64,000 bases of DNA, from contig NC_060028.1 in the NCBI RefSeq assembly GCF_021134715.1, positions 10,681,563 through 10,745,562 of the forward strand, written 5' to 3'. Positions 3,001 to 64,000 of this stretch are shown in pieces (position 1 is the first letter of the stretch; each line of letters starts with the position of its first letter). The position numbers and the translations under genes are program-made. The notes under the pieces are model-generated. The model was not told where the DNA came from, did no database searches, and saw only the letters and a program-made list of their open reading frames with translations. Source of the DNA: Daphnia pulex (Eukaryota > Arthropoda > Branchiopoda > Diplostraca > Daphniidae).

Positions 3001-6000
3001 AAACTCTCTTTTTTCTTGCCCTGCTGGGCCACGTAAAAGAAGCGAATGGCGCGGATCGAGTGTGATGGCCCTTTGCGCCATCACACAATCAGCTGGATTA
3101 TATTCGATTTACGGGAGTCACGGCTCGGACTCTTCTTCTCGTCGGGAATGAGAAAAAATAACGATCTCCTTTTTATTTTGTATCCGTCCCCCCCTCCGTT
3201 CGTGACGTCAACAAGCTTTTCAATCAGTTTCTAAATGTAAAGCGAAAAGCACCGGGGCCCCATTTTCAATTTGGTTGAGGCACAAACGCGAGTTAATGCT
3301 CCGGTCGCTTTATATAGATCTATCGGGAGTCTGGGATCTGCTGCTGGGATCCCCCTTTGAAAGGCGAAATAAATCAAATATGCAGCAGGCATACCAGCAT
3401 GGGGGCAGACTCCGGATCCTATATTCGATCGCCAGGAACGGCCGAGAGTCTCGGCATCAAATGACATCAAGGCAAAGGCGAAGAAGAAGAAGAAGAGGGA
3501 CGAAATAACCAAGTGAAATTGTATGGATACCTCTTTACAATATTCTATCACGACTATACCATTGACTGCAGAAAATTGATAGCTGCACACACGCGTACGT
3601 GTGAGAGGGGGGTATTACAATTATGGGTGGGAAAACTGGTGACGAAAGGATCTATTCTTTTCGTCGGAAGAGCCAGAGCCGAGTGTATTATAGGCGCAGA
3701 AGAAAGGCTTCTTCTTCCTACTATACTAATCTACGGTAGACTCCCACTACTATAGAGACTTGGTGATGGTTCGAATGCGCCAACTTTTCAAACCTTCCCT
3801 CCTGGCCTGTTGTCCACTCTGTTTCTTGACGTCTAATCGGCTTACAAAGTCGCCATGTTCTTCTTATAAGGCCCCTCTCTCTTTAGATGGGTATAGAAAA
3901 CTTGCTGCTCAAATCCGCTCATACACAACAAAAATTAAGGAGCCAGAATAAAAAAAAAGTAGGAGCGAGAGAGAGTGAGTGAGAGAATAAGGAGAGTTTT
4001 GAAGCCGGAACGGGTGGTTCGGCTAATGGTTTTAAACTGGCCGCCTCCATTTGTTGGACAGCAGAAAGATGGCGCCTTGACAATAGGGTGTTTGATACTA
4101 CAAAGAGAGTGGGGAGTATTATACGATCTAGAAAAGAGCTAGTGGAAAAAGAGGAAAGGAAGTTGGATAATAAAATGGAGAAAAAATGGGAAAATTGAAT
4201 TGATCGAAATCTCCACCCCAGCACCAACGGATTATTCATTTTGATACGGATACAATATTATATCGTCAAGAATATACGTTGATCCTTCCATGACGCAACA
4301 TCCGGCTTCCACAGAGACGTTCTATTTTATTTTTCAAATGTTTGGTAACAGTTTGATTTCCGGCGAGTGCGGATTAAAGGCCAATAAAGAAACTGTGGCA
4401 ACGGTTATTTTTCCTACAGTTGACAGCATTTCATTGGCTTGGACACACAGCAAACAAAGTCGGTAACTAAATTCCAATTTACTAAACGGTCGACACGTTT
4501 AATCGAAGCCTTACTATAGCAACCAAAACTGCTGGTCGTCAAGCAGAAAACTCCACCCCAAAAAATCCTTATGTATAAGATAAATAACGAAATACGCCAA
4601 GGAAAAAAAAAACAGGAATGTTTCCAGCACTCTAGCCAATCGATCCTGTGTACACAGCTAGCGTTCCAACTTTTCAGCCGGACAAGTTTTCGGTTCGTCC
4701 GAAATATAAGCCGATTTAAGTCTGTTTTTCTCCTTTTTCTTGGAAAAAAAAATGAACAGAAAAGTTTGTTTTTGGAACGAAGTCCTTCAGAACAAAATAA
4801 TCTAATGGAATAAAGAAACTGCCAGCGAATTTCAGGGAAATGAATAACCAAACTTAAACTTTGACGAATTTTTTTTGTTTTTTGTTTTTCAACTTTTCTT
4901 ATTCAGCTCCACTGATTCGTTGCTCCTGTGCCGAGCTGATTAAGAGAAAAAGACATGGGTCGTCAGTCGGTGAGGGGTGGTTTGAGGGCAGCCAAAGCGT
5001 AAGGCGGGCGTCGTCCTGCGGGCGCCAAAGAGGAGTTGGAAGTGGGAGCGATGTTGCGTTTCTCATGTCAACCCGTTTGGAGCTGACGCAGAATGATATC
5101 CCAATGGGATCTGGATGGTCGAGTCATCAGTCTTCTAAAATGAGATACGACGAGAGACGAAGGAGCCCTAGAGAGAGGGGGGACAACATCACCCAGCAAA
5201 AAAAAAAAGGATCCTGTAGGAGTCGTCGTCGGACCCTTTTACACGCGTATAGTATATGTATATACACATCTATTCAAGCCGGATGCAATATTCATGACGC
5301 GGAAACATCGGCCGTCCGTTCCGGACCCGATATAACGAGCACGGGTTGGTCCCTTAAGGATTCCTTAAGGATGTACCCCCCCCCCCTACCCAATATACTA
5401 TAAAAATATAGATCTACGTATGCACGAAATCCACAGGCCCTGCTATAAAATCTAGCCGAGAGAGAGAAAAAGAAATAGACAAGACTGACGGAGGGGGGAA
5501 TATAAGCGCGGAGCCGGTGGGCATTCATGAATAAAGCACGTCGTTGCACTGCTGCACTGTTCTGACGAACGGTGAACTACGTATATATAGTGTATACATA
5601 TTACACGGGGAAAGCCGATGAGGCCTTACCGGGGCATAGAGCACAGGATCTTTTAGATAATTCAACAAAACAGAACTAACTTTTTTGTTTTGGTTCTCCT
5701 TATTTTCAGATGTTTTTCTCCTAATCTTCTTAGAACCAAGTTCAATTTTTCGGGACGTACTGGGGGGATTGGAGACCCAAGGAGTGGCAAGCATAAGGAC
5801 CCTAATCCCGTCACGGAAAAAAAAACAATAGGGAGCTAAACAAAATTTCACTAGATGCACCCACCGGATGTGGTTTTGATTTCATATTAGTTTGAATATT
5901 CATGTGGCAGCAGCTCGCTAACAAATTCACGTCGGAGAAATGAACAAAATAAATCCTTGTGGAAAGTTATAAGGGGAAGACGCAAGGAGCCGAAAACACA

Positions 6001-9000
6001 TCATCAGACCAGATTGGATGAATGTGATGTATCAAATCCTCGATGACAGGGCGGAGGGTATTACAGATGCACATATTAGATTATTAGCCTACAGCGGGAA
6101 TGACGTTAAAGGCCTATTAAATTAAATGAGGTAGTGAATTAAAAACAATAAATCCTCGTTCGTATTGAGCAAGTATATTCTTTTCCTTTCCCAATTTGAA
6201 TTCTGTTTTGATTCAAAGGTTTTTTGTTGGTATTTTAAAAAAGTTTTGTAGAAAGTGCTGCCATCTAGCCGTCGGGTATTCTACCAAGTGTAAGGGACGA
6301 GTGATTGTGTTCCAAGGTTTTTTCAAACAAGAAAGAAAAATAGGTTAAGATATTATGACGGCAATAAATTACATCGTCGTCCTCTTGAAATGAGATTTTT
6401 TTTTTTAAAATTTCCAATTAAATGAGCAACGATGTGAATGTTAAGTTTTGAAAGTATGTCGCATTTAGTCATGTATGAAAACGAGTTTGATCCGCCCGAG
6501 ATTAGACTCTCTCGAGCTTTTTGCTGACAGCAATATTTCAAATCAATTTCAAAAGCGTCCTTGACGTTTATAACCAAACTTTGATTAAAAAATCGCGAAT
6601 GTAAATCTCTTTAACGTCAAAAAGAAAAAGAAAACAATTTCAGCAAAGCGGCAAATCATTCAATTCAATATCACCATCCGGCTGGTTGCAATTGACGTCA
6701 CACCCGGACCCTCTCTCGACTCTTGGGTGTTTTGTTAATATTCATCACGTTCAATAATTCATTTTCCTTCCCTCCCCATTTGAGTCGTCGTCTTTTTTGG
6801 CGAAAAGATGCAAAAGCAAAAGAGTCAAAAGAGTCACATCGCGTTCCTCGGTGCTATCCAATACCCAACGACCCGCGCGAGTGCCAGTCAGACCCCCGAA
6901 ATAAAAATAAAAATACAAATGTTTTTTTTTCTTCCCCCTTCGTGAATTCCTGGCAAGACGTAAAGGCAAATTTGCATGACAACTACCATAGCCCGACACA
7001 AGAGAATTGCAGAAGAAAATTCAAGGTTGAATTCTTCCTGGACGCCTACCTACGGTATAGACGTATTATACAATATACACATAGTATAGAAAAACGTATA
7101 TAATAACAAGTCCTTTCTTCCGCTTTGTGAACGTACTTTTGGGTTTGGCGTATTATTCCTTGGCGCTTATTTCTTGTTACAAACTTATTTCTAGGAAAAA
7201 GAAAGACAAACAAAAAAACATTTATGAGAATCATGTCAAAACTTTTACACCGGCTGTCAGCACTATACGACCCGCTTGCCGGCGTTTCAAGTACACCGGT
7301 CTTATCTCGCCAAAAAATTTTAACTTTAACCAACACACAAAAAAAAGAATAAGCGGAGATTATATTCAAGAGATTGCAACAAGTTTTCTTCCTTTCCAAG
7401 AAATGCGGCGTGTAATTCATTGTCCTAAAGTTCTTCTTCTTCTTCCTCTCATTTTCCAACGGGAGAAATTATCACCATTATATTAGTAAATTACACGGAG
7501 AGCGAGGGAGAGAAAAAAACCCGCATAAATATGACGCAGTTGGCGGAGCATTTCGTTCGCAATGGCGCGGGAAGGAAACCCGAATCCAACATTCACGACA
7601 CATAGCCCAACGGCTAAGCCCAACACACAAAAAAGAATAAGATATACGAAAATTGTTGGCTGGCTTTGTGAGACTGGGCTGCTGACAGGTAATACATTAT
7701 TAGTAGTATAGGATGTCGCCCCTGGTTGCGCATCTCCCCCTCATCCATTCGAACCTAAACGCTGCTGACGATGACGCCATCGTGAGTAATGTAAATACCC
7801 GCCATCGCCGTAAATCTTTGAAAAGAAAATGAATCGATTCGACGTCAAAATTTCACGACTGTCGAGTCCAACCTGGGAACTATACACACAAAAGTCCGCG
7901 CTACACATAGTAGTAGAGCTCGATCCATTTTGTCTGTGCAGTGACATTGGCTCTATGGCGGTCGTAAATCAAACGCCAGAAATATCCAATAATCAACATG
8001 TCACTTCATTTTTCGCTCTGGTGCGAAATTGTTACGACCGACCAAAACCAAACTCTGCGCCAAACGTCCCTGACAAATCCAATCACCGATTTGATGGGAT
8101 GATAAAGTAGATCCTAGAGGACTCTCTCTTCCACCTGCGCGCGGGCAAGTAACAAAACAAAATAAAATAAAAGACAGTCGATCAAAAAAGATAGAGAGAG
8201 AGAAGATGACATGGCGGCGTGCCTATTGCCTATACCGCCATTCTTTTAATACTGATTGAAGTCTCAAGGTTTGAGGTGTGTTTGTGCCTGGCAAAGCTGT
8301 TTGTCTGAACGACCCACACACAGACACTCAGGTATGTAAGTTGAGTTGTTCAATTCCTCCTCTCTCCCGTCCTTGCTGTAAAAGAAAAAGAAATAAAAAG
8401 ATAGAGAGAAGCTATTCCTGATCTTCGACTGATGACGAGTGATTGAACGAATTGCAATGACATTCAGTAAAATTTGAGCAACGTCACGCTGTAGTAGACT
8501 CCCGACTTCCAAGAGACGGTCCCATTCATCGCTGGTTTCTCTTCTCTGGGCTCTGGGATTCCATTAAAGACAATCGTACTAGTCTCCCGAAATAGTTTGA
8601 CCTTTAAAGAAAAATAAAAGAACGCCTTCTCTCTTGTCTATTGAATGGAAAATTTTCTGAAATAAGAGCAGCAGCACGGCAGAGTTTGTATCCCCTTTTA
8701 TCTCACGTTGACATAATGTTGCATTGTAGTATAGTTGATCTGGTGTTTAATAGCATATCTGCAGCATTGTTACCGTTATATAAGGGCTCGTTTATCAACA
8801 TCGACCGCAAATATTGCAGATGTCATGATTGGGGAAATTTACATAAAGGCGCAATGTGAACCACGGGGATCTTTTTTGAAAAGAAAGGTGGGGACGATCG
8901 AGAGAAAATGATCGTTTTCTCAGGAAAAAACAACCCACTTCTTCTTCTTCTTCTTTAATTCTACCACGCCCTTACGTCACAACTTTTACAATTTTTTTTT

Positions 9001-55007: not shown

Positions 55008-56461
55008 TTTTTTGGAATTCCAATCAAATTTACAATCAAGAAATTAATTAAGACAACGTTTACTCTTCTCAATACAAAAAAACGAATGAGACGACTTTTT
55101 TTCACAGAAGAAATTTGTTGTCAACATTTATTTCAACGTTGCCAGTTCTTTTTACAAAGCCGACTCCGCGAAGCGAATTTTCAACCGGGAACGGGAAGTC
55201 AGGAACTATTTGAGTATTTTCACGGGTCAGAACACGGGTTGAGGGCACTCTTTTTCATTTTAATTTATCAATGATTTTTTTTCAATTTGGATCGACTTAC
55301 GTTAAAAAAAAATAATGGCAATGGCACGCGGTGTGTGACGGGGGCAGGCCGGCCAGCGGGCAGCGGCCACCCCACGGGCCACACGCCGGAATTCATTAGC
55401 AAATGACAAAGCCATCAACAAGGGTGTTAGATTTATAGCTATTAATCTAATTACTAAATAATTTATAAGTTTCCAATTAAAATAATTAAAACTCATCAAA
55501 TTTCAAAACGCCATCTCTAGTGAATGCTGTTCGCCTTCTTCCCTCTACCTCTAGATGTCCTATTGCTTACAGTGTACTCGTGCATTGCCACCAGGGGGCT
55601 TTGCAGGCAGAAGTTCGTCTGCAATGAAAAATACTCAAGTAGCCAAGGGTCTAGCTATAATCACACAAAAATTAGCATTCAAATTCCGGCAATTTACTTA
55701 TTATTTAGTAGTTTGTGTGTGGTTTAGTGAAACCAACAACTCGATATTACAGCCTTGCGGTGATCTAATGCAGGATCTATTTTCCCAAAAAACAATTTCT
55801 CGGCCGACCATTATCATCAAGTCTACATTCATTCTTCAAAACCACACAGGTGAATTCACAACACTTTATTTATGATTACTTGCAGTCACTCTAAATAGTC
55901 AACTAAATATCTAAGATCAGTTTTTTTTCGGGAAATGTTTCAAAAACACAGTGCATCCAGCTTTGCAAGTTTCAGGCTAATCATTTTCACACCATGATCT
56001 TAAAAGAATTTTGCCCTAGAAATCAATAATTATTACTTGGGAGAACAACTCATTTTCAGCACAGGTTGATGCTCTTATGATCTTGCCTTTTTGTTTCAAT
56101 CCTAATCAAACTCAACCAGGTACTATTGTCATACTACAAATTCTTGATTTTGTGCGTAGATAAATTTTTTATTATGAAGCCCCACTTTGTGAGATTTACT
56201 TAGTTGACGTGTTAGTTTACATTATATTATGCACACAAACATGGGAAGAGCGGGAGACAACATCTCATGGGACTGAGTACAAGTACAAGGATTATTCCTA
56301 TGTGTGTAACATTTTTGCAGCTTTTGAGAACTTATTGACAGAGAAAAGAGGTTTCTAACAAGCCTAAACTGTGTGTACATCATGAAATGAATATGGATTG
56401 ATCATGCGTTTGAAAGTTATTAAATAAGGTTGCCAAGGAATATTTTCAAAAAAGCGAGGAC
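55008..56461. other. Intergenic stretch with GC-rich patch and CTCF-like motif
   Basis: No gene supported. An open frame of 106 codons at 55555-55875 has no recognisable domain or splice support. It holds a GC-rich patch of about 80 bases (55316-55395) that stands out from the AT-rich surroundings, and two insulator-like motifs at 55509-55522 and 55588-55599. Confidence 0.5.
55588..55599 (+). promoter_or_regulatory. CTCF-like core motif CCACCAGGGGGC
   Basis: Matches the CTCF core consensus (CCASYAGRKGGC) at every position. A related CGCCATCTCTAGTG lies 66 bases upstream at 55509-55522. Occupancy is unknown, and the site borders the repeat-gene cluster that begins near 56.4 kb. Confidence 0.35.
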
Positions 56462-56770
56462 TTATTCATTCACCGAAAAAACGAGTCAAATGACTCAAAT
56501 GTCAATTGGTATAAAGTGAGTTTTAATCCATAACCATTTGGTATTCATTTTGATATTGGTTGTTGTAGACCCATCCCCAGCAACGTCAACCTGCAGAAGG
56601 AAAGGCCAGTTTGCATGTCCTTTCACGCTCGAAGGTCACAGAGATCATTACGTAAAACGTGTCCTGCAGTGGTGTAGATGTTGGGTGAGAAAGGGATGTG
56701 TTACATTATCAAGGAGGTCAATTAGCCGCAAGGCTTAGGAGGTGAGGGTGAGAAAAAATTCGGATAAAAG
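56462..56770 (+). repeat. Promoter-unit repeat A of the YYTEAP cluster
   Basis: About 300 bases shared with units B and C: CACCGAA, then the inverted pair GAGTCA-AA-TGACTC (56483-56496), a block around GACCCATCCCCAGCAACGTC, the Arg/Lys-rich middle and GTGAGAAAAAATT leading to a TATA position. Here the TATA reads GGATAAAAG (56762-56770), with the first T replaced by G, so the promoter may be weak. Confidence 0.8.
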
Positions 56771-56779
56771 GAGAGAGAA

Positions 56780-57380
56780 GCAGTTGGGTGAGCATCACCA
56801 ACAGGGCTACAACTGCTGAGAACTACCTGTACCAACTGCATTCTTCGTTGGGATCAGTTCGCAAACACGGGTAAATATTCTGTTGTTACATGGAGTTTTG
56901 TGTCAAATTCTATTTTTATTTCTTTTTGTTAATATGCCAGTTATTGAATATTAATGTTCAAATTATTTATTGTTTAGTCGTATAATACAAGTAGAGACGA
57001 AAGGCGAAATAAATCAGTCTAGTTTGCATCTCCGACACGGCAACAGCAACTGCAGTGCCAAGGCTCAGAGTATTACACCACAACTTATGTTGGCCTGAGA
57101 TACTACCAAAGCGCCTGAGTGCTATACCGAGGCCACTAATTACTACACCACCAAGGCACCGGAGTACTACAACACTACATGTCATGGGTAAATATTCTGT
57201 TACGTGGAATATGCCAACTACTAAAAATATAAATTATTTATTTTCTAGTCGTATTAAAGAAGAGAAAAGTTGAAAGAATTCAGCAGTCGAGTGAGCATCT
57301 CCGTTACAGCAACAGCTATGCACTATTTGTCACTAACTTCATTCTTTGTCGCACAACACGTTTGAATTAAAGGTAAATAT
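56780..57380 (+). pseudogene. Broken YYTEAP repeat-gene copy 1 with shuffled leader pieces
   Basis: Three leader-like fragments (56780-56872, 57025-57060, 57280-57375) each resemble the family 5' leader with GACACGGCAACAGC-type sequence. The segment 57060-57185 reads partly as the Tyr repeat (EYY, NYYTTKAPEYYNTT) but has no signal-peptide exon and is interrupted by TGA codons in the repeat frame. It ends in a family-type first-exon junction (ATGG followed by GTAAATATTC at 57182). At 56865-56870 the expected start ATGG reads ACGG. The fragments look like products of unequal recombination. No intact protein can be made. Confidence 0.7.
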
Positions 57381-57479
57381 TTTTCCATGGAATTGTGAAT
57401 CAACTCAACTTTTTTTCTATTTGGTAATATGCCAGTAATTATTCAATATTAATGTTTAAATTTATTACTGTCTAGTAAA

Positions 57480-57995
57480 CTATGTTGTCGTGCTGCTATT
57501 GGATGAAGAATCGTTGATGACTCGGTCAACCACTAATGTGCTGATGTCTCCTGGGTATGGCGGGTATCAAACCACAACGCCGGCGTCCAACAACAACATA
57601 CGCAACGACCAGTTACTACACCGAGGCCCCCAAGTATTAAACCACCAAGGCTCCAAATTATTACACCAAACTTCTGCTGCCCCGAGCTACTACACCGAAT
57701 CCCCGAAGTATTGTTCTTCCCCGATCTATACTACAAAAGCGTCGAGTACTACACCGAGGCTCCGAAGTACTACACAACTACACATGCTGCATCAGATCTC
57801 TACACCGTGGCTCCAAAGTACTGCATCACCAAGGTACCGGTTACTACACAACTACGTATGCTGCGCCAGCTCACTACACCGAGGCCTCCAAGTACTACTC
57901 TGCTCCTGTCGGTCTTGTTTTATCGGCTGCATTTTGTCGATATGTTGTCTCTTGGGACCGGCGTCGAGGTAATGCTTAATGTTTCGTTCAATTAT
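57480..57995 (+). pseudogene. Broken YYTEAP repeat-gene copy 2
   Basis: Family exon 2: it opens after a TAG acceptor (57474-57477), reading VNYVVVLLL, and contains the diagnostic MSPGYGGYQTTTP (57541-57585). Just after this a deletion relative to the other copies (the PYYTTTYA block is shortened) shifts the frame. In the original repeat frame a TAA follows PKY within 60 bases. Later stretches can still be read as YYTESPKY and YYTEAPKYYTTTHA in changing frames. Open frames of 160 and 95 codons here are out-of-frame readings of the decayed repeat. Confidence 0.8.
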
Positions 57996-59561
57996 TGACT
58001 TTCAATTAAAATCTATTCGTTTTCAGTTGAATCGTTTGCTGCCGTTCCATAGACTTGATCCATTGGTAAAACTGAGGAGAAGTTGCTGAAATTCAAGACT
58101 CGTCAATAAATTATGTAGATGTAGACAAATTACAAGTGCATATCTGGGCTCCCTTCTTCAGTGGCCCCGTTTCCCTAACTAACCACTAACCAACGCCCGC
58201 CGGTGGTCACTCACTCGCTGCGACAACCAGGAGAAAGGGAGATGTCTGGTCGAACGGGGACTTGCAAGGCGCATGATTCGATGCAAATCTGTTGGAGGGT
58301 CATGAGTCTAAGCCGAAAGCCTGCTATGATGCATTGCTCTCTTAAAAACTTTTCCTCGGCTCTCTTCGCTCTTTTTCCGGTTTCTCTTAACCATGGCCGG
58401 GTAATCTCCCTGGTCGAGTCAGTCGGGCAGTGTCTTCTCCTGCTTGACTGGCTGCAGTTTGAACCGGACGGTCTGTTTAAATAAGAAATTAAATTTAGAA
58501 CAACGCTTCCTTTGAGCGGCCCGGACAATCCTTAAGGGTTGCCACTCCATCGAGGCTTAAACGAGGGTACGTAATTATACGTTAGTCAAATTGCTAAAAC
58601 CGGCTAAAACTACAAATTCAATTTTTTGTATTACCCAGATGACGCGGAGGTGTCGCCCATTGAGGGGTTTTGGTGACAAGGAGAAGGAGTCACTGAACGA
58701 AACGCTAAACCATTAAAAAAGGTAATGCTAGATACGACATGAAGGTTTTGCTTTGGCAGAGAATAATGTGTATTTGTTTGCAACCAACGATTCTTTATAT
58801 ATCCGAGCCGAGTCCTTTCCTTCTACATTCGGTGTGAAGAGCAAAACGCGAATTTCAACACATTTTACTGCTTAGCAACGTAAACAAAGCGAGTGTCAAA
58901 ACATCGTTTTACTTGCGCATACTTAATTGTAGCAGAAACGCGTTGGTCATGCAACAGGATCTATTTTTCCCCTTTTGTTTATGCAGCATCAAACGACACG
59001 CGATAGGTTCCGGCGGTCATCAACTATTCAAGATGGTAGACCTGTCAATGTAAAAGACAGGCTAAAGGTACAAGCTCCTGTAAATGTCATTCATTTATGT
59101 TAAATAGCTGCCAGCAGGATTTCATTGTTGATTTGCGGTTACAAAATCCATAGGCCTAGAGTTTAGGTATTGTCAATCAATCATTCGATTTGCGTTTTAG
59201 ATGCTCCTAAATCAGTTGTGGAAATACGATTTTTCCCCCCGCTTCTTCTGGATGGTTACTTAGGATCATTCAAGTTCATTTTTGAGTTAAGCGTTGTGAA
59301 CGTAGCGGACGAACTCTGACAGTCTATCGAGCTTTAGCAATTTCGTCAAATTTCTTATTTTATTAATTTTATTTAACCGTTTCATGAGAAGCTTTGATTT
59401 GAATTTTTTAAAAGTAATAATTTACCTTTTTTTTATCTCTATTTTGAGATTTTCTGCTCCGGCCGCAGGTGCAGGGATCATGTGTTTGAAACTTAGATAA
59501 GTTTGCAGTAGAATATTTAAAAAAAAGCCGATTGTTGTTCAAACGGTTCGAAATGGAAGAT
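57996..59561. other. Unclassified stretch inside the cluster, possible inserted element
   Basis: Between copy 2 and promoter unit B. The part 58150-58560 is richer in G and C than its surroundings and shows no Tyr repeat or leader homology that I can see. It could be an inserted element or a remnant of another gene. I found no clear terminal repeats, tRNA-like promoter or coding domain. The rest is AT-rich and featureless. Confidence 0.4.
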
Positions 59562-59865
59562 TTATTCATTCACCGAAGAAATGAGTCAAATGACTCAAAT
59601 GTCAATTGGTATATTTTTTTAAGTGACTAAAGTTTAAGCCATTATCATTTATGATTTGATATTTATTTTCATATTGATGTTGTAGACCCAACCCCAACAA
59701 CGTCAACCTGAAGAAAGAAAAATGCCTATTTCCATGTCGTTCACGCTTGAAGGTCACGAGAAACATTACGTAAAACTGGCATGCAGTGGTGTAGAGGTTG
59801 GGTGAGAATGACACGTGTTGCTTCATTATCAAGCAGGTAGAATAGCCACAAGGATAAGCTATTTG
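59562..59865 (+). repeat. Promoter-unit repeat B of the YYTEAP cluster
   Basis: Starts with the same CATTCACCGAA and GAGTCA-AA-TGACTC pair (59583-59596) as unit A and runs through the GACCCAACCCCAACAACGTC block to CCACAAGGATAAG. It then passes straight into unit C without its own TATA box or leader, so it is an orphan promoter fragment. Confidence 0.8.
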
Positions 59866-60110
59866 GTATTCATTTTGATATTGGTTTTTGTAGACCCATC
59901 CCCAGCAACGTCTACCTAAAGAAGGAAAGGCCAGTTTGCATTTCAATCGAAGGTCATGGAGATCATTACGAAAAGGTGTCATACAGTGGAGAAGAGGTTG
60001 GGTGAGAACGGTACGTTTTGCATCATTATCAAGAAGGTAAAAAAAGCCGCAAGGCTTGAGAGGAGGGGTGAGAAAAAATTGTATAAAAGGCGAGAGAAAA
60101 GTTGATAGGG
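59866..60110 (+). repeat. Promoter-unit repeat C with intact TATA box
   Basis: Repeats the second half of units A and B, beginning at the ATTTGGTATTCATTTTGATA block. It ends in TATAAAA (60082-60088) and an initiator-like ATCAGTCG at 60111, spaced about 29 bases. This is the best-preserved core promoter of the family in the window. Confidence 0.8.
60082..60088 (+). promoter_or_regulatory. TATA box of YYTEAP copy 3
   Basis: TATAAAA 29 bases before ATCAGT, the probable transcription start, followed by the family leader with GACACGGCAACAGCTGCATT. Confidence 0.65.
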
Positions 60111-60462
60111 ATCAGTCGAGTGAGTGTCTCCGACACGGCAACAGCTGCATTCTTCGTCGTAATATCAGTTCGCAATTATGGTTAAATATTCATTTTTAAT
60201 TTCGAGTCGTAAATCTATTCTATCTTGTTTTGAGTTGTTGATACGACTAGTTATCTTCGAAAAATAATATCCAATTGTTTATTTTATTGCGTAGTTAATT
60301 ATGGCGTTGTGTTGCTGTTGGTTGTTGTATCGTTGATGTCGACCATGAGAGAAAGTCTTTTAAAAGGAAAGAAAAAGGGCAACGGAAGTCAATCGAGTGA
60401 GCATCTCCGACCGGCAGCAGCTGCATTCTTCGTCGTATCATCAGGTCACAATCACGGGTGAA
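60111..60462 (+). pseudogene. Broken YYTEAP copy 3: promoter, leader and signal peptide, no repeat region
   Basis: After the TATA box the leader reaches an ATG at 60178-60180. Exon 2 opens at 60298 and encodes the start of the family signal peptide (VNYGVVLLLVVVSL). The donor after ATGG is changed (GTTAAAT instead of GGTAAAT), so ordinary splicing would shift the frame to an early stop. After about 20 signal-peptide codons the sequence runs directly into another family leader (AGTGAGCATCTCCGAC and on) and stops being repeat-coding. It is a truncation fused to the next unit's leader. Its first-exon end at 60456-60460 reads ACGG in place of ATGG. Confidence 0.7.
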
Positions 60463-60544
60463 TATTCTGTATTTCTACGTGGAATTTTGTATCAATTTCT
60501 ATTTATTCTGTTTGATAATCTGTCCGTTATTGTTGAATATTTAA

Positions 60545-60970
60545 TGTAGTCTGGTTAACTATGCTGTCGTGCTGCTATTGGTTGCTGTATCGTCGATGGC
60601 TGGGTGGACGGATGGTGTTCCGATGTCTCCTGGATAAGGCGGATACCAAACCGCACGCCGCCGCCTTACTACACAACAACATACGCAACGACCAGTTACT
60701 ACACCGAGGTTGCACTGTTGGGTTTACAGTTAAACCACCAAGGATCCAGATTATTACACCACAACTTGTGCTGCTCCTCGAGCTACACTACCAAGACGCT
60801 AAAGTACTACACCGAGGCTCCCAAGTACAACACCACCAATGCATCTGAGACTACGCAACTACGTATGCTGCCCCAAACAACGACACCGAGGCTTCAGCTT
60901 ATTACACCACCAAAGCTGTCGAATACTACACAGGAGCGCCCAAGTACCATAGAAATCAGTCGAGTTCTCT
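60545..60970 (+). pseudogene. Broken YYTEAP repeat-gene copy 4
   Basis: Exon 2 carries five extra bases after the acceptor (TCTGG before TTAACTATG). In the family frame it reads VNYAVVLLLVAVSSMAG, then MSPG followed by a TAA stop (in place of the Tyr codon) and GGY. Further on, YYTTTYATTSYYTE is followed by a frameshift, and later pieces (YYTEAPKYNTTNA) are again out of frame. Two long open frames of 95 and 122 codons over this area are shifted readings. Confidence 0.85.
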
Positions 60971-61114
60971 GACACCCAACGCGGCAGCCCTGAAGTTTCG
61001 AATAAACTTCGCTTCAAACAGTGAAACGGCGAAGAGTGAAGGTGAGCTCTTTATTATTGGAATTTTGTGGAACATGTATTAATGACTTGCTTTCCTTCAT
61101 TGTCTGTTTTTCGA

Positions 61115-62203
61115 GCAAGACGAATTCTACTGCAATCCCGTCGAATTGAATAGCAAAGACAACACATTCGTACGTGTACACCGCGTAGTTAAACTTGACA
61201 TTGTTGGTCGGAAAGCCGAACTTGACGATGGCCGTACCATCACCTACGATAGTACGATAAGTGCGTTATTGCCACAGGTAAACATTTTATTCTAAACGAA
61301 ATTCGTCTAATTACACCTTAATGAAATGTTGAATAAGTTTGATAGTCTTCCTGCTCGATAGTTACTAAGTCTATTTACACTGCTAGCAATTTATTTCTGT
61401 GAATTAGTTTTACGAATATAATTAGTTCTAGAAATTCCTCTAAAAATAGCCTTTATTTTCTTGTTAGGTAGTAAACAAAAATCTTTTCCAATCCCTGAGC
61501 GGTGCCCTTAAAGATGTCCACGAGCACGTCACGCTGTCCCCCAACATCGATGGCGCTAACACATGCCGAGTCCTCTAAATGTTTAACCAATGGACAACCG
61601 AGAAGGTGAAAGCGGAAAGTGTTAATGTGTTGCCCAAAACTTATGTTGAGGCTGAAATTTTGGAAGACGACGAGGTTGCATTGATCTTATACGATGGTCA
61701 AAAGGTAAACAATTATTTCAGTACATGTTTCAGCGATGTTAATTAAAATCTAGAATTCATTTCTGCAGATTTAAACTGACCATGGCGTCTCTGTTGTCGG
61801 TTAGGACGCAAACACGGATTTGGCTGTCGCTTCTGGTTTGGAAATAGATTCGAATTCCGGTGGTTATCGGGTCAATACCGAGCTCGAAGCACGATCGACC
61901 ATCTGGCTGGTAAGAATCCTTGAACATTTTATTTCATATTGATTTTATTGCTTAAAACTTATTGTAAATTTCAGTGCTTAAAACTTGACCAATAATGACT
62001 GCTCTGATGTTGTTGTTAAATAGTAAGTTCTTGTTAAATTAGATTTTAATTACTGGGTTTGCACTTTATTTTTTTATTAGGCCGGAGATGCTGCCTTCTT
62101 TTGTGATATCAAATTGGGTCGTCGTCGTAGGGAATATCATCACTTTGCTGTTGTATCAGGTGATTGGCTGGAGAGAACAATACTGGCAACTAAACATGGA
62201 TGA
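61115..62203 (+). pseudogene. Decayed fragment of an apoptosis-inducing factor (AIFM1) gene
   Basis: Four exon-like blocks with intact GT-AG borders (61115-61276, 61468-61704, 61769-61909, 62081-62203) read as the middle of the AIF oxidoreductase. The first has KAELDDGRTITYDS. The second has FQSLSGALKDVHEHVTL and QWTTEKVKAESVNVLP. The third has [26 protein letters not shown] and EARSTIWL. The fourth has AGDAAFFCDIKLGRRRREYH and FAVVSG. In AIF these blocks border the NAD- and FAD-binding sites. In-frame stops occur at 61576-61578, 61772-61774 and 61802-61804, and the reading ends at TGA 62201-62203. The glycine-rich NAD motif expected in block 2 (GGGFLGSE-type) is lost, as are the N-terminal FAD domain and the C-terminal dimerisation domain. 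Because introns are kept, it is a duplicated or translocated genomic fragment, not a retrocopy. Confidence 0.85.
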
Positions 62204-63204
62204 ACAACTGCAGTGTACTCTTCCCAAGTGCTTTCTTCTTCGTATTATCAGTACGCAATCGGGTAAATATTCTGTTTTATGGAGTTTGTGTCAATTATTT
62301 GTTTTTTATCTGTTTATGTACCATAATGAATATTAATGTTTAAATTATTTACCGCATAGTTGATGATGGTGTCGTGCTGTTGCCGTTTGTCGTATCGTTG
62401 AAGGCTGGGTCGATCACTGGTGTACCGATGTCTCCTGGGTATGGTGGATACCAAAGCACCACACCGCTGCCTTACTACACAACGACAACATTCGCACCAA
62501 CCGGTTATTACACTGAGGCTCACAATTACTACATCACCAAGGCTCCAGAATATTACACCGCAGATAACGCTTCCCCGAGCTACATCATCAAAGATCCTGA
62601 GTACTACACCGAGGCTCCCAAGTGCTACACCACCAAGTCACCGGAGTACTACACGTATGTTGCCCCAGCTTACTACACCGAGGTTTCCAAGAATTATTTA
62701 GTTCCTAGCTACTACACCGAGGCTCCAACTTATTACACCACCAAAGCGGTTGAATACTACACCGAGTCACCCAATTACTGCACCACCAAGGCTCCAGAGT
62801 ATTACACCACAACTTGTGCTACCCCGAGCCACTACACCGAAGCCCCGAAGTATTACTCTGCCCCAAGCTACACAACTGCAACTGAGGCGGCCAAGTATTA
62901 CGCAGCCCCGACTAACTACACAGCGGATGTTCCTTCGTACTACGTTGAACCGGAATACTACACCGAGGCTCCAGTTTACTACACCACAACCTACGCTACA
63001 CTTTCTACACACTACACCGAGGCCCCTATGTACTACACTACCAAGGCACCTGAGTATTATAACGCTACTTACGCTGCTCCGACCAACTACACCGAAGCTC
63101 CGAAGTATTACTCTATCCCGAGTTACTACACCACTGAGGCACCTGAATATTACACCACACCCTACGCTTCTCCAACTTACTACAGGGACGTTTCTGAATA
63201 CTAA
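62196..63204 (+). CDS. YYTEAP-repeat Tyr/Thr-rich protein, open copy with chimeric first exon
   Basis: Exon 2 (62360-63204) is open for 281 codons: a hydrophobic start (VVLLPFVVSLKAGS), the family block MSPGYGGYQSTTP, then about 250 residues of degenerate repeats such as YYTEAPKYY, YYTTKAPEYY and YYTTTYA, ending YYRDVSEY. Tyr, Thr, Pro, Ala and Glu make up most of it. Other copies start with ATGG in a tiny first exon; here that ATG is gone (sequence CAATCGGGTAAATATT). The best in-frame start is the ATG at 62196-62198, giving exon 1 62196-62262 (MDEQLQCTLPKCFLLRIIST and on) with correct phase into exon 2, for 303 aa in all. That ATG lies in the last codons of the AIF fragment, read in another frame. 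No promoter unit or TATA box like those of other copies precedes it. An extracellular structural role (cuticle, eggshell or similar) is inferred from composition only. Confidence 0.7.
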
Positions 63205-64000
63205 AGTTGAATTTTCAATTTTAATAATTATGTTCATATTTGTCGGTCATATCTCAATAATTACTAGTCACTGGGAATTGTTGATCTTAAAAAATAAATA
63301 AAATATTGTTAACCTGGGTAATCATTTTGTACGACTTGTCTTGCCACCTAAAAGCCTTTGACATTGACACGTTTTCTGATTTTTGTTGGATCTTTCCTAT
63401 TTCGTATGTTGGTGGTGACTATTGCTCTATTCGCTCTGCATTCCGACATGTTCTAGTGTTTGGACGAACTTTATTTACAGGGCAAGATTCGAAAGAAACG
63501 TGGTGTTAACTAAAAATTTTCGATGTTAACAGTTCTGTTTTTAACTTAAGTTGGGGTAAAAAAAGGTGTTGTAGATAATGTTTGGTTTGTCACAGCAATT
63601 TATTTGAAGAATCTGAAGATGATCAGTCACAAAAATATACAAGTCTTTTTTATTACAAGTTACGAGACATGGCAAACAAAAACTTTAAAAGGAATTGCTT
63701 TTTTGTCCCACCTCCACCCACAATTCCACCACATTTTACAATCACATACATAAATACATACACTTAAGTTAACCCGTTGGCTGCCACGCCATGCAACCCG
63801 TAGGTTGTACTCTACTACTCTACGCGCCACGTCTGAAGGATCCGTGACCAAAGTGGGACTTGCCATTGCTGACAAGTCCGGGCTGACACGGTGACAGGAG
63901 AATCCATCACCGCATCGACAAGGGGGAACTTGGTGCATTGCCAAACAGGCGCCTTTCGGCGCGGCCCATGCTAAGGAGCGGGGAGAACAAAGGCGTGGCA
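63205..64000. other. 3' flank and unclassified end of window
   Basis: The 3' untranslated region of the YYTEAP gene has AATAAA at 63295-63300. No gene is supported after it. The last 230 bases (from about 63770) are clearly richer in G and C than the rest of the cluster and may begin another element or gene continuing outside the window. Confidence 0.5.
63295..63300 (+). terminator. Polyadenylation signal of the open YYTEAP gene
   Basis: AATAAA about 90 bases past the stop codon, in a run of A-rich sequence. Confidence 0.5.

Follow-up and report, generated by a model that had tools for sequence, protein, structure and literature searches.

We analysed a 64,000-nucleotide stretch of the Daphnia pulex genome (the window; C12:10681563-10745562 in a searched assembly of 133.2 Mb on 13 contigs), which holds decayed copies of a Tyr/Thr/Pro-repeat gene. 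The best explanation, to which we give a probability of roughly 0.77, is that an old palindromic repeat unit has dispersed over the genome and that the gene-bearing region represents one of its arms, together with an additional, diverged copy. The original prediction had described a decayed tandem cluster. Instead, the segment from 58.5 to 64 kb, non-coding DNA included, was 86-95% identical over 4.5-5.2 kb to units elsewhere.

The segment at 58.5-64.0 kb aligned with one arm of a dispersed, often palindromic unit. Identity was 86% over 5.17 kb to C5:477k (loci are given as contig:position), 93% over 4.99 kb to C7:164k and 94.6% over 4.56 kb to C2:2167k, in the last case climbing from 88% to 100% as the contig end is approached. 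Contig C12 stops at window base 64000, and the palindrome may be the cause of this assembly stop. The assembled contig ends within a palindrome arm, and a telomere-like array was not seen by eye in its last 9 kb. Elsewhere, (TTAGG)n arrays occur inside contigs (C1:3.296 Mb, C2:8.781 Mb) and near an end (C2:13.34 Mb), with positions taken from the matches listed among 7439 forward and 4286 reverse pattern hits.

Many matches across the genome came as equal-score pairs on opposite strands. Both arms were fetched, whole or in part, at 12 loci (A-H, K, M, N and L032), and all 12 were palindromes with arms 98.2-99.8% identical; the arm lengths of 2.5 to 8 kb are minima, since several arms run beyond the fetched stretch. 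Ten loci (A-H, K and M) had a common centre type and N (C1:4.66 Mb) another; L032 (C1:4.61 Mb) faces outward, and the comparison of centres covered the other loci. Gene copies within the units nearly always had their 3' end towards the centre. Loci differed from one another by ~1% to over 20%, while the arms within a locus were almost identical. For the single open copy of the gene in the window, the nearest sister in the gene segment was at locus D (98.6%). The candidate loci numbered about 60 on 11 contigs, an estimate from the union of all lists, one of which allowed scores within 4%. As to the spacers, that of palindrome C (L013/L014, C5:486.1-492.4 kb) holds a 2098-codon frame that is retroelement-like by eye and of which a 300-residue piece had no Pfam match, and that of palindrome B (L012:1114-2229) holds a Helitron_like_N domain (8.7e-17).

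The orientation of paired copies sets this family apart from a tandem array. Among 150 scored matches of its 32-residue leader (781 candidates), inverted equal-score pairs within 20 kb numbered 36 (34 facing inward) and direct pairs 4, whereas the RR-cuticle domain, as a control in the same genome, gave 1 inverted and 26 direct pairs among 150 scored matches (331 candidates). Equal scores of so short a leader do not prove a palindrome, and a trio at C7:9.30 Mb may be due to chance. A local tandem gene cluster decaying through unequal exchange, the birth and death first proposed for this region, would account for the several copies running in one direction in the window and for a 156-nt leader block that recurs there at 3079 and 1805 bases. 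We nevertheless consider it very improbable: the copies, a dead AIF fragment and non-coding DNA are found in the same order at numerous dispersed loci, frequently in inverted orientation, and only 4 of the family's 40 equal-score pairs are direct, so that the window copies read as pieces of a dispersed unit. RR-cuticle genes at C10:11.337-11.356 Mb illustrate the contrast: they are arrayed in direct orientation at a ~4.6-kb period, and equal scores alternate along the array.

Arm bodies showed 0-2 mismatches per 500 bp over ~3-6.5 kb. In seven of eight loci, mismatches clustered at one end of the arm, outer or inner, or at both; the eighth, F (C5:341k), had only 8 in all, of which 5 lay next to an insertion. 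Arm bodies were nearest to their own partner at 10/10 loci for segment D 7200-8100 and at 8/8 for the gene segment. At six of the eight loci with both stems (A, B, C, D, F and H), the inner stems were nearer to a stem elsewhere than to their partner, with 96-98% identity across loci against 84-88% within for B, C and F, and 97-99% against 90-91% for D and H. This nearest-neighbour test is independent of how the sides are named, and in B, C and F, and in D and H, the match also holds by side; E and M gave one stem only, and F gave three stem-like matches, of which the best per side was used. Because arm bodies group by locus but innermost stems group mostly across loci, the palindrome seems older than its dispersal.

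Most likely, the arms were homogenised in place by gene conversion. In the simplest history, which we infer from these groupings, the unit would already have been a palindrome when it spread across the genome, and arm-to-arm conversion would since have kept the arms alike at each locus, failing near the central loop, where it is blocked, and at the outer ends. As most loci have a diverged innermost stem, we think fold-back copying a less likely origin of the identity between arms. A flip of the central spacer from one locus to another was set aside as carrying no information, because a palindromic locus has no fixed orientation. The arms are near-perfect, and PMC7953838, in the part available, warns of false palindromes from scaffolding; we therefore weighed whether the palindromes are assembly artefacts, produced by read-through of library hairpins or by one arm scaffolded twice. 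This is highly improbable given that one centre, with an inner stem and loop that have diverged, is shared by ten loci (eight of which yielded both stems), that stems group across loci and mismatches rise at arm ends as described, and that the cuticle control yielded a single inverted pair.

Several observations weigh against a dispersed palindrome homogenised in place. The inner stems of G and K (C2:398k, C11:3.29M) group by locus, and a GC bias of conversion was not evident, with arms having a higher GC content than spacers at 6/6 loci, a difference that their innermost 1.2 kb showed at only 3/6. One partnerless unit was looked at (C7:528k); it is single-armed and stops inside the centre. 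The window itself shows one arm only, and the inverted-pair counts depend on equal scores among the matches listed. All loci come from a single assembly, in which scaffolding errors can produce false palindromes and polishing may make near-identical arms look fully identical; polishing may thus exaggerate arm-body identity, yet it would not make stems group across loci. Finally, the searches brought up no shared terminus, target-site duplication or transposase that would explain the spread.

The outer ends bear directly on that last point. Inspection by eye of both ends of four loci showed neither a common terminus nor a target-site duplication. At most of 20 outer windows the homology ran on outward without reaching a terminus, and the points at which it ends vary between loci. 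The repeat at 57906-58489, which contains short frames, was rejected as a terminal inverted repeat, as its homology continues outward at other loci. By eye, no transposase was recognised among the open reading frames (ORFs) of at least 95 residues in the C2:2167k unit, of which two had no Pfam match; in other units the scan covered two ORF pieces from inserts. The unit could be a DNA transposon with very long terminal inverted repeats and captured host genes, which would be compatible with a dispersed palindrome and would explain the dispersal, the captured AIF piece, the inverted arms and the shared outer repeat. With variable outer ends, an outer repeat that extends outward, no target-site duplication seen and no transposase recognised in the unit inspected, we regard this as doubtful.

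Within the window, the predicted set of one open and at least four broken copies held in part: the repeat copies and remnants are real, but the open copy is no working gene. Searches by tblastn with the open copy, together with DNA repeats, placed Tyr/Thr/Pro repeat copies at 56967-57182, 57511-57907, 60551-60962 and 62347-63201, besides a leader-only remnant near 60289-60340. The shared promoter block, leader and MSPGYGGY block were all recovered as fuzzy matches (promoter block at 56761, 57251, 60078 and 60358, the last with 5 mismatches; exon-2 leader at 57470, 60289 and 60548; MSPGYGGY block at 57540, 60621 and 62424). Six first-exon sites were found. ACG replaces ATG at 56864 and 60458, ATG is lost at 57363, and near 60177 ATG is kept and the splice donor has changed from GT to TT; the site at 57184 alone keeps both ATG and donor, and is fused to a repeat fragment. 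In the open copy the first exon (62248-62270) reads CAATC---GGGTAAATATT, without the ATG (site 62256), the leader is degraded (VDDGVVLLPFVVSLKAG versus VNYGVVLLLGVVSLMAG), and a fuzzy search of the window found no promoter block near it; a dead AIF fragment directly precedes it.

Selection estimates agree with this damage. The open copy had a dN/dS of 0.79-1.35 against 11 sister copies (0.91 against L002 with another alignment), and 9 of the 11 carried stops in its frame. Against the intact genes L032 and L034 the values were 0.39 and 0.25, as expected if much of the divergence arose under selection. No start codon, intact leader or purifying selection was thus found for the window copy at 62347-63204. 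From the sequence, the window copies look like neutral pseudogenes and the open copy looks dead. Copy 1, at the left of the region (Table 1), is a more distant paralogue, with 70-90% identity per matched piece, chiefly on other contigs. Rfam at gathering scores returned nothing on the window, L016 or L035, phage records gave no match, and PDB sequences held no relative of the open copy. A minus-strand ORF in the block near the contig end (63646..63960) had no Pfam match.

Table 1. Features of the palindrome arm and adjoining DNA (window positions).
Feature	Position	Strand
Copy 1: promoter block, scrambled first exons, frameshifted repeat pieces (56967-57182 and 57511-57907)	56451..57907	+
Dispersed repeat on the outer side of many units and in other places; continues outward, no clean terminus	57906..58489	+
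One arm of palindromic repeat unit; contig stops before the expected centre	58480..64000	+
Promoter block, first exon (ATG, donor GT to TT near 60177), truncated after the leader exon	59551..60340	+
Broken copy: ACG start, donor and leader present, frameshifted repeats	60346..60972	+
AIF1 dead fragment with in-frame stops	61001..62176	+
Open copy: frame of 286 codons from stop to stop, without its start codon (deleted), degraded leader, no promoter block found	62229..63204	+
Block common to units of both subfamilies, 89-96% identity	63646..63960	not assigned

Many units bear the dead AIF fragment. In the window this fragment (61001..62176) matched AIF1 chains (phmmer, 3.6e-21); pieces of it were placed at 61805-61918 and 62075-62176, and it recurs at dozens of places in the genome (84 matches). 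The only AIF_C domain in the genome lies at C7:11498019-11498456 (1.1e-52), and the DNA immediately before it (C7:11496533-11498011) is 76-77% identical to the window fragment. The parent AIF gene is probably the one on C7 near 11.4965-11.4985 Mb. Copies of the Tyr-repeat gene lie ~20-50 kb from this gene, at C7:11446842 and C7:11515970.

Outside the window, intact relatives of the decayed copies were found. They have a promoter block close to GTATAAAAGGAGAGAGAAAAGG, followed by a first exon ending in ATG-G, a short intron and exon 2, the same split start (ATG-G, intron, TT-AAC-TAT) that had been predicted from the broken copies. Exon 2 gives MVNYGVVLLLGVVSLMAGS.TGVPMSPGYGGY or similar, with repeats such as YYTEAPKYYTTKAPEYYTTTYAAPS, so that the intact protein has the form MVNYGVVLLL...MSPGYGGY; L031 differs from the other intact relatives in its leader. 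The spliced genes L026, L032 and L034 encode 305-347 residues, and their mature parts contain 27-28% Tyr, 19-21% Thr, 14% Ala and 11-12% Pro, without Cys. The dN/dS values among the three were 0.20, 0.22 and 0.25 (L032-L034, 0.29 with a DNA-level alignment), approximate because of the repeat alignment; by these values, the intact members are under purifying selection. Judged by composition and leader, they probably encode a secreted structural protein, and their products may plausibly be joined through tyrosine, perhaps as a cross-linked extracellular material.

The view that this is an unrecognised family, decayed in the window, with a signal-peptide-like leader and repeats of Tyr pairs, was upheld, and the family is large. 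Pfam searches matched no family for two window ORFs and the intact gene L034 (the latter at E up to 5), and the same proteins fell into neither the RR cuticle family (PF00379) nor the GYR/YLP families (PF02756/PF02757). The family's peptide motifs were not printed in the literature searched, and we found no description of the family in the literature searched on Daphnia with palindromes, dityrosine, ephippium proteomics, KAP4 segmental duplication or gene conversion. A word search of the available portion of PMC12102780, on Daphnia gene families, found neither palindrome nor mucin.

At least one palindrome with the common centre type contains an intact member: the intact gene at C9:1.63 Mb has an equal-score partner and the centre seen in the palindromic units. 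L032 (C1:4612500-4617900) consists of two back-to-back genes with identical 357-codon frames and ~1 kb between their leaders, forming the outward-facing palindrome. In the other units, inward transcription across the centre might produce a long hairpin RNA, and from it small RNAs against the intact family, as with the hairpin RNA (hpRNA) loci of Drosophila; this, too, would be compatible with a dispersed palindrome. The inward orientation of 34 of the 36 inverted pairs accords with it, as do promoter-like blocks kept in window copies (56761, 60078) and the 0-93 21-mers that ten arms share with each of five intact genes (above zero in 49/50 comparisons, each arm with at least 4/5 genes). Shared 21-mers are, however, expected from common descent, and the count had no shuffled control; we hold such a hairpin role to be quite unlikely. 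A wider proposal, which we put forward tentatively and think improbable as a whole, is a new kind of palindromic gene unit. On 11 contigs there would be as many as about 60 mirror units, the majority facing inward, that carry a secreted protein gene and had the palindromic form when they spread; in a cyclically parthenogenetic animal they would either repair their own genes by arm conversion or produce hairpin RNA directed at the parent family.

Descriptions of gene-converted palindromes come chiefly from sex chromosomes, with some from a few asexual animals. Daphnia, which alternates sex and parthenogenesis, is not known to have sex chromosomes. Palindromes of the X and Y type have inverted arms >98-99% identical, and 12/12 loci here agree with this (98.2-99.8%; for the window, a second arm is expected past the end of the contig). 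Arm bodies at 10/10 and 8/8 loci and stems at 6/8 point to arms that have co-evolved at each locus since the palindrome arose. Confinement to a sex chromosome was not found, the candidate loci being spread over 11 contigs. Gene conversion is known to homogenise arms in this way, and in the human P6 palindrome their identity is attributed to it (PMC3723533, in part). Primate Y palindromes, as excerpts describe them, likewise have gene-bearing inverted arms >99% alike around a more diverged spacer. The Daphnia units differ in that a single gene family forms numerous small, related palindromes, spread over as many as 11 contigs, with many dead genes and diverged innermost stems.

Palindromes of Adineta vaga and Folsomia candida resemble the present ones as inverted gene blocks on one chromosome with the potential to convert each other; according to the part of PMC7953838 available, that survey of parthenogenetic animals counted no more than 19 palindromes in any genome and left out D. 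pulex for lack of annotation, whereas here a single family has about 60 candidate loci. The hpRNA loci of Drosophila simulans (PMC10317233, in excerpt) also carry inverted copies related to a target family, but the Daphnia arms are kilobases long, hold whole gene copies and are known from DNA alone. GYR/YLP cuticle proteins, for which PMC2932725 in the portion available counts 228 matched genes in D. pulex that may or may not include the present family, are Tyr-rich and extracellular like the intact family; unlike them, the scanned family proteins match no Pfam entry. Dozens of related palindromes of one family on most chromosomes were not found described for Daphnia in the literature searched, a scope outside which most subscription papers and bioRxiv preprints fall.

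The palindromes may make Tyr-repeat genes hard to assemble and to count. If the reading of a dispersed, arm-converted palindrome is true, dozens of palindromes holding intact and dead genes, with a diverged stem as a clock, would allow us to measure how palindromes arise, spread and convert.

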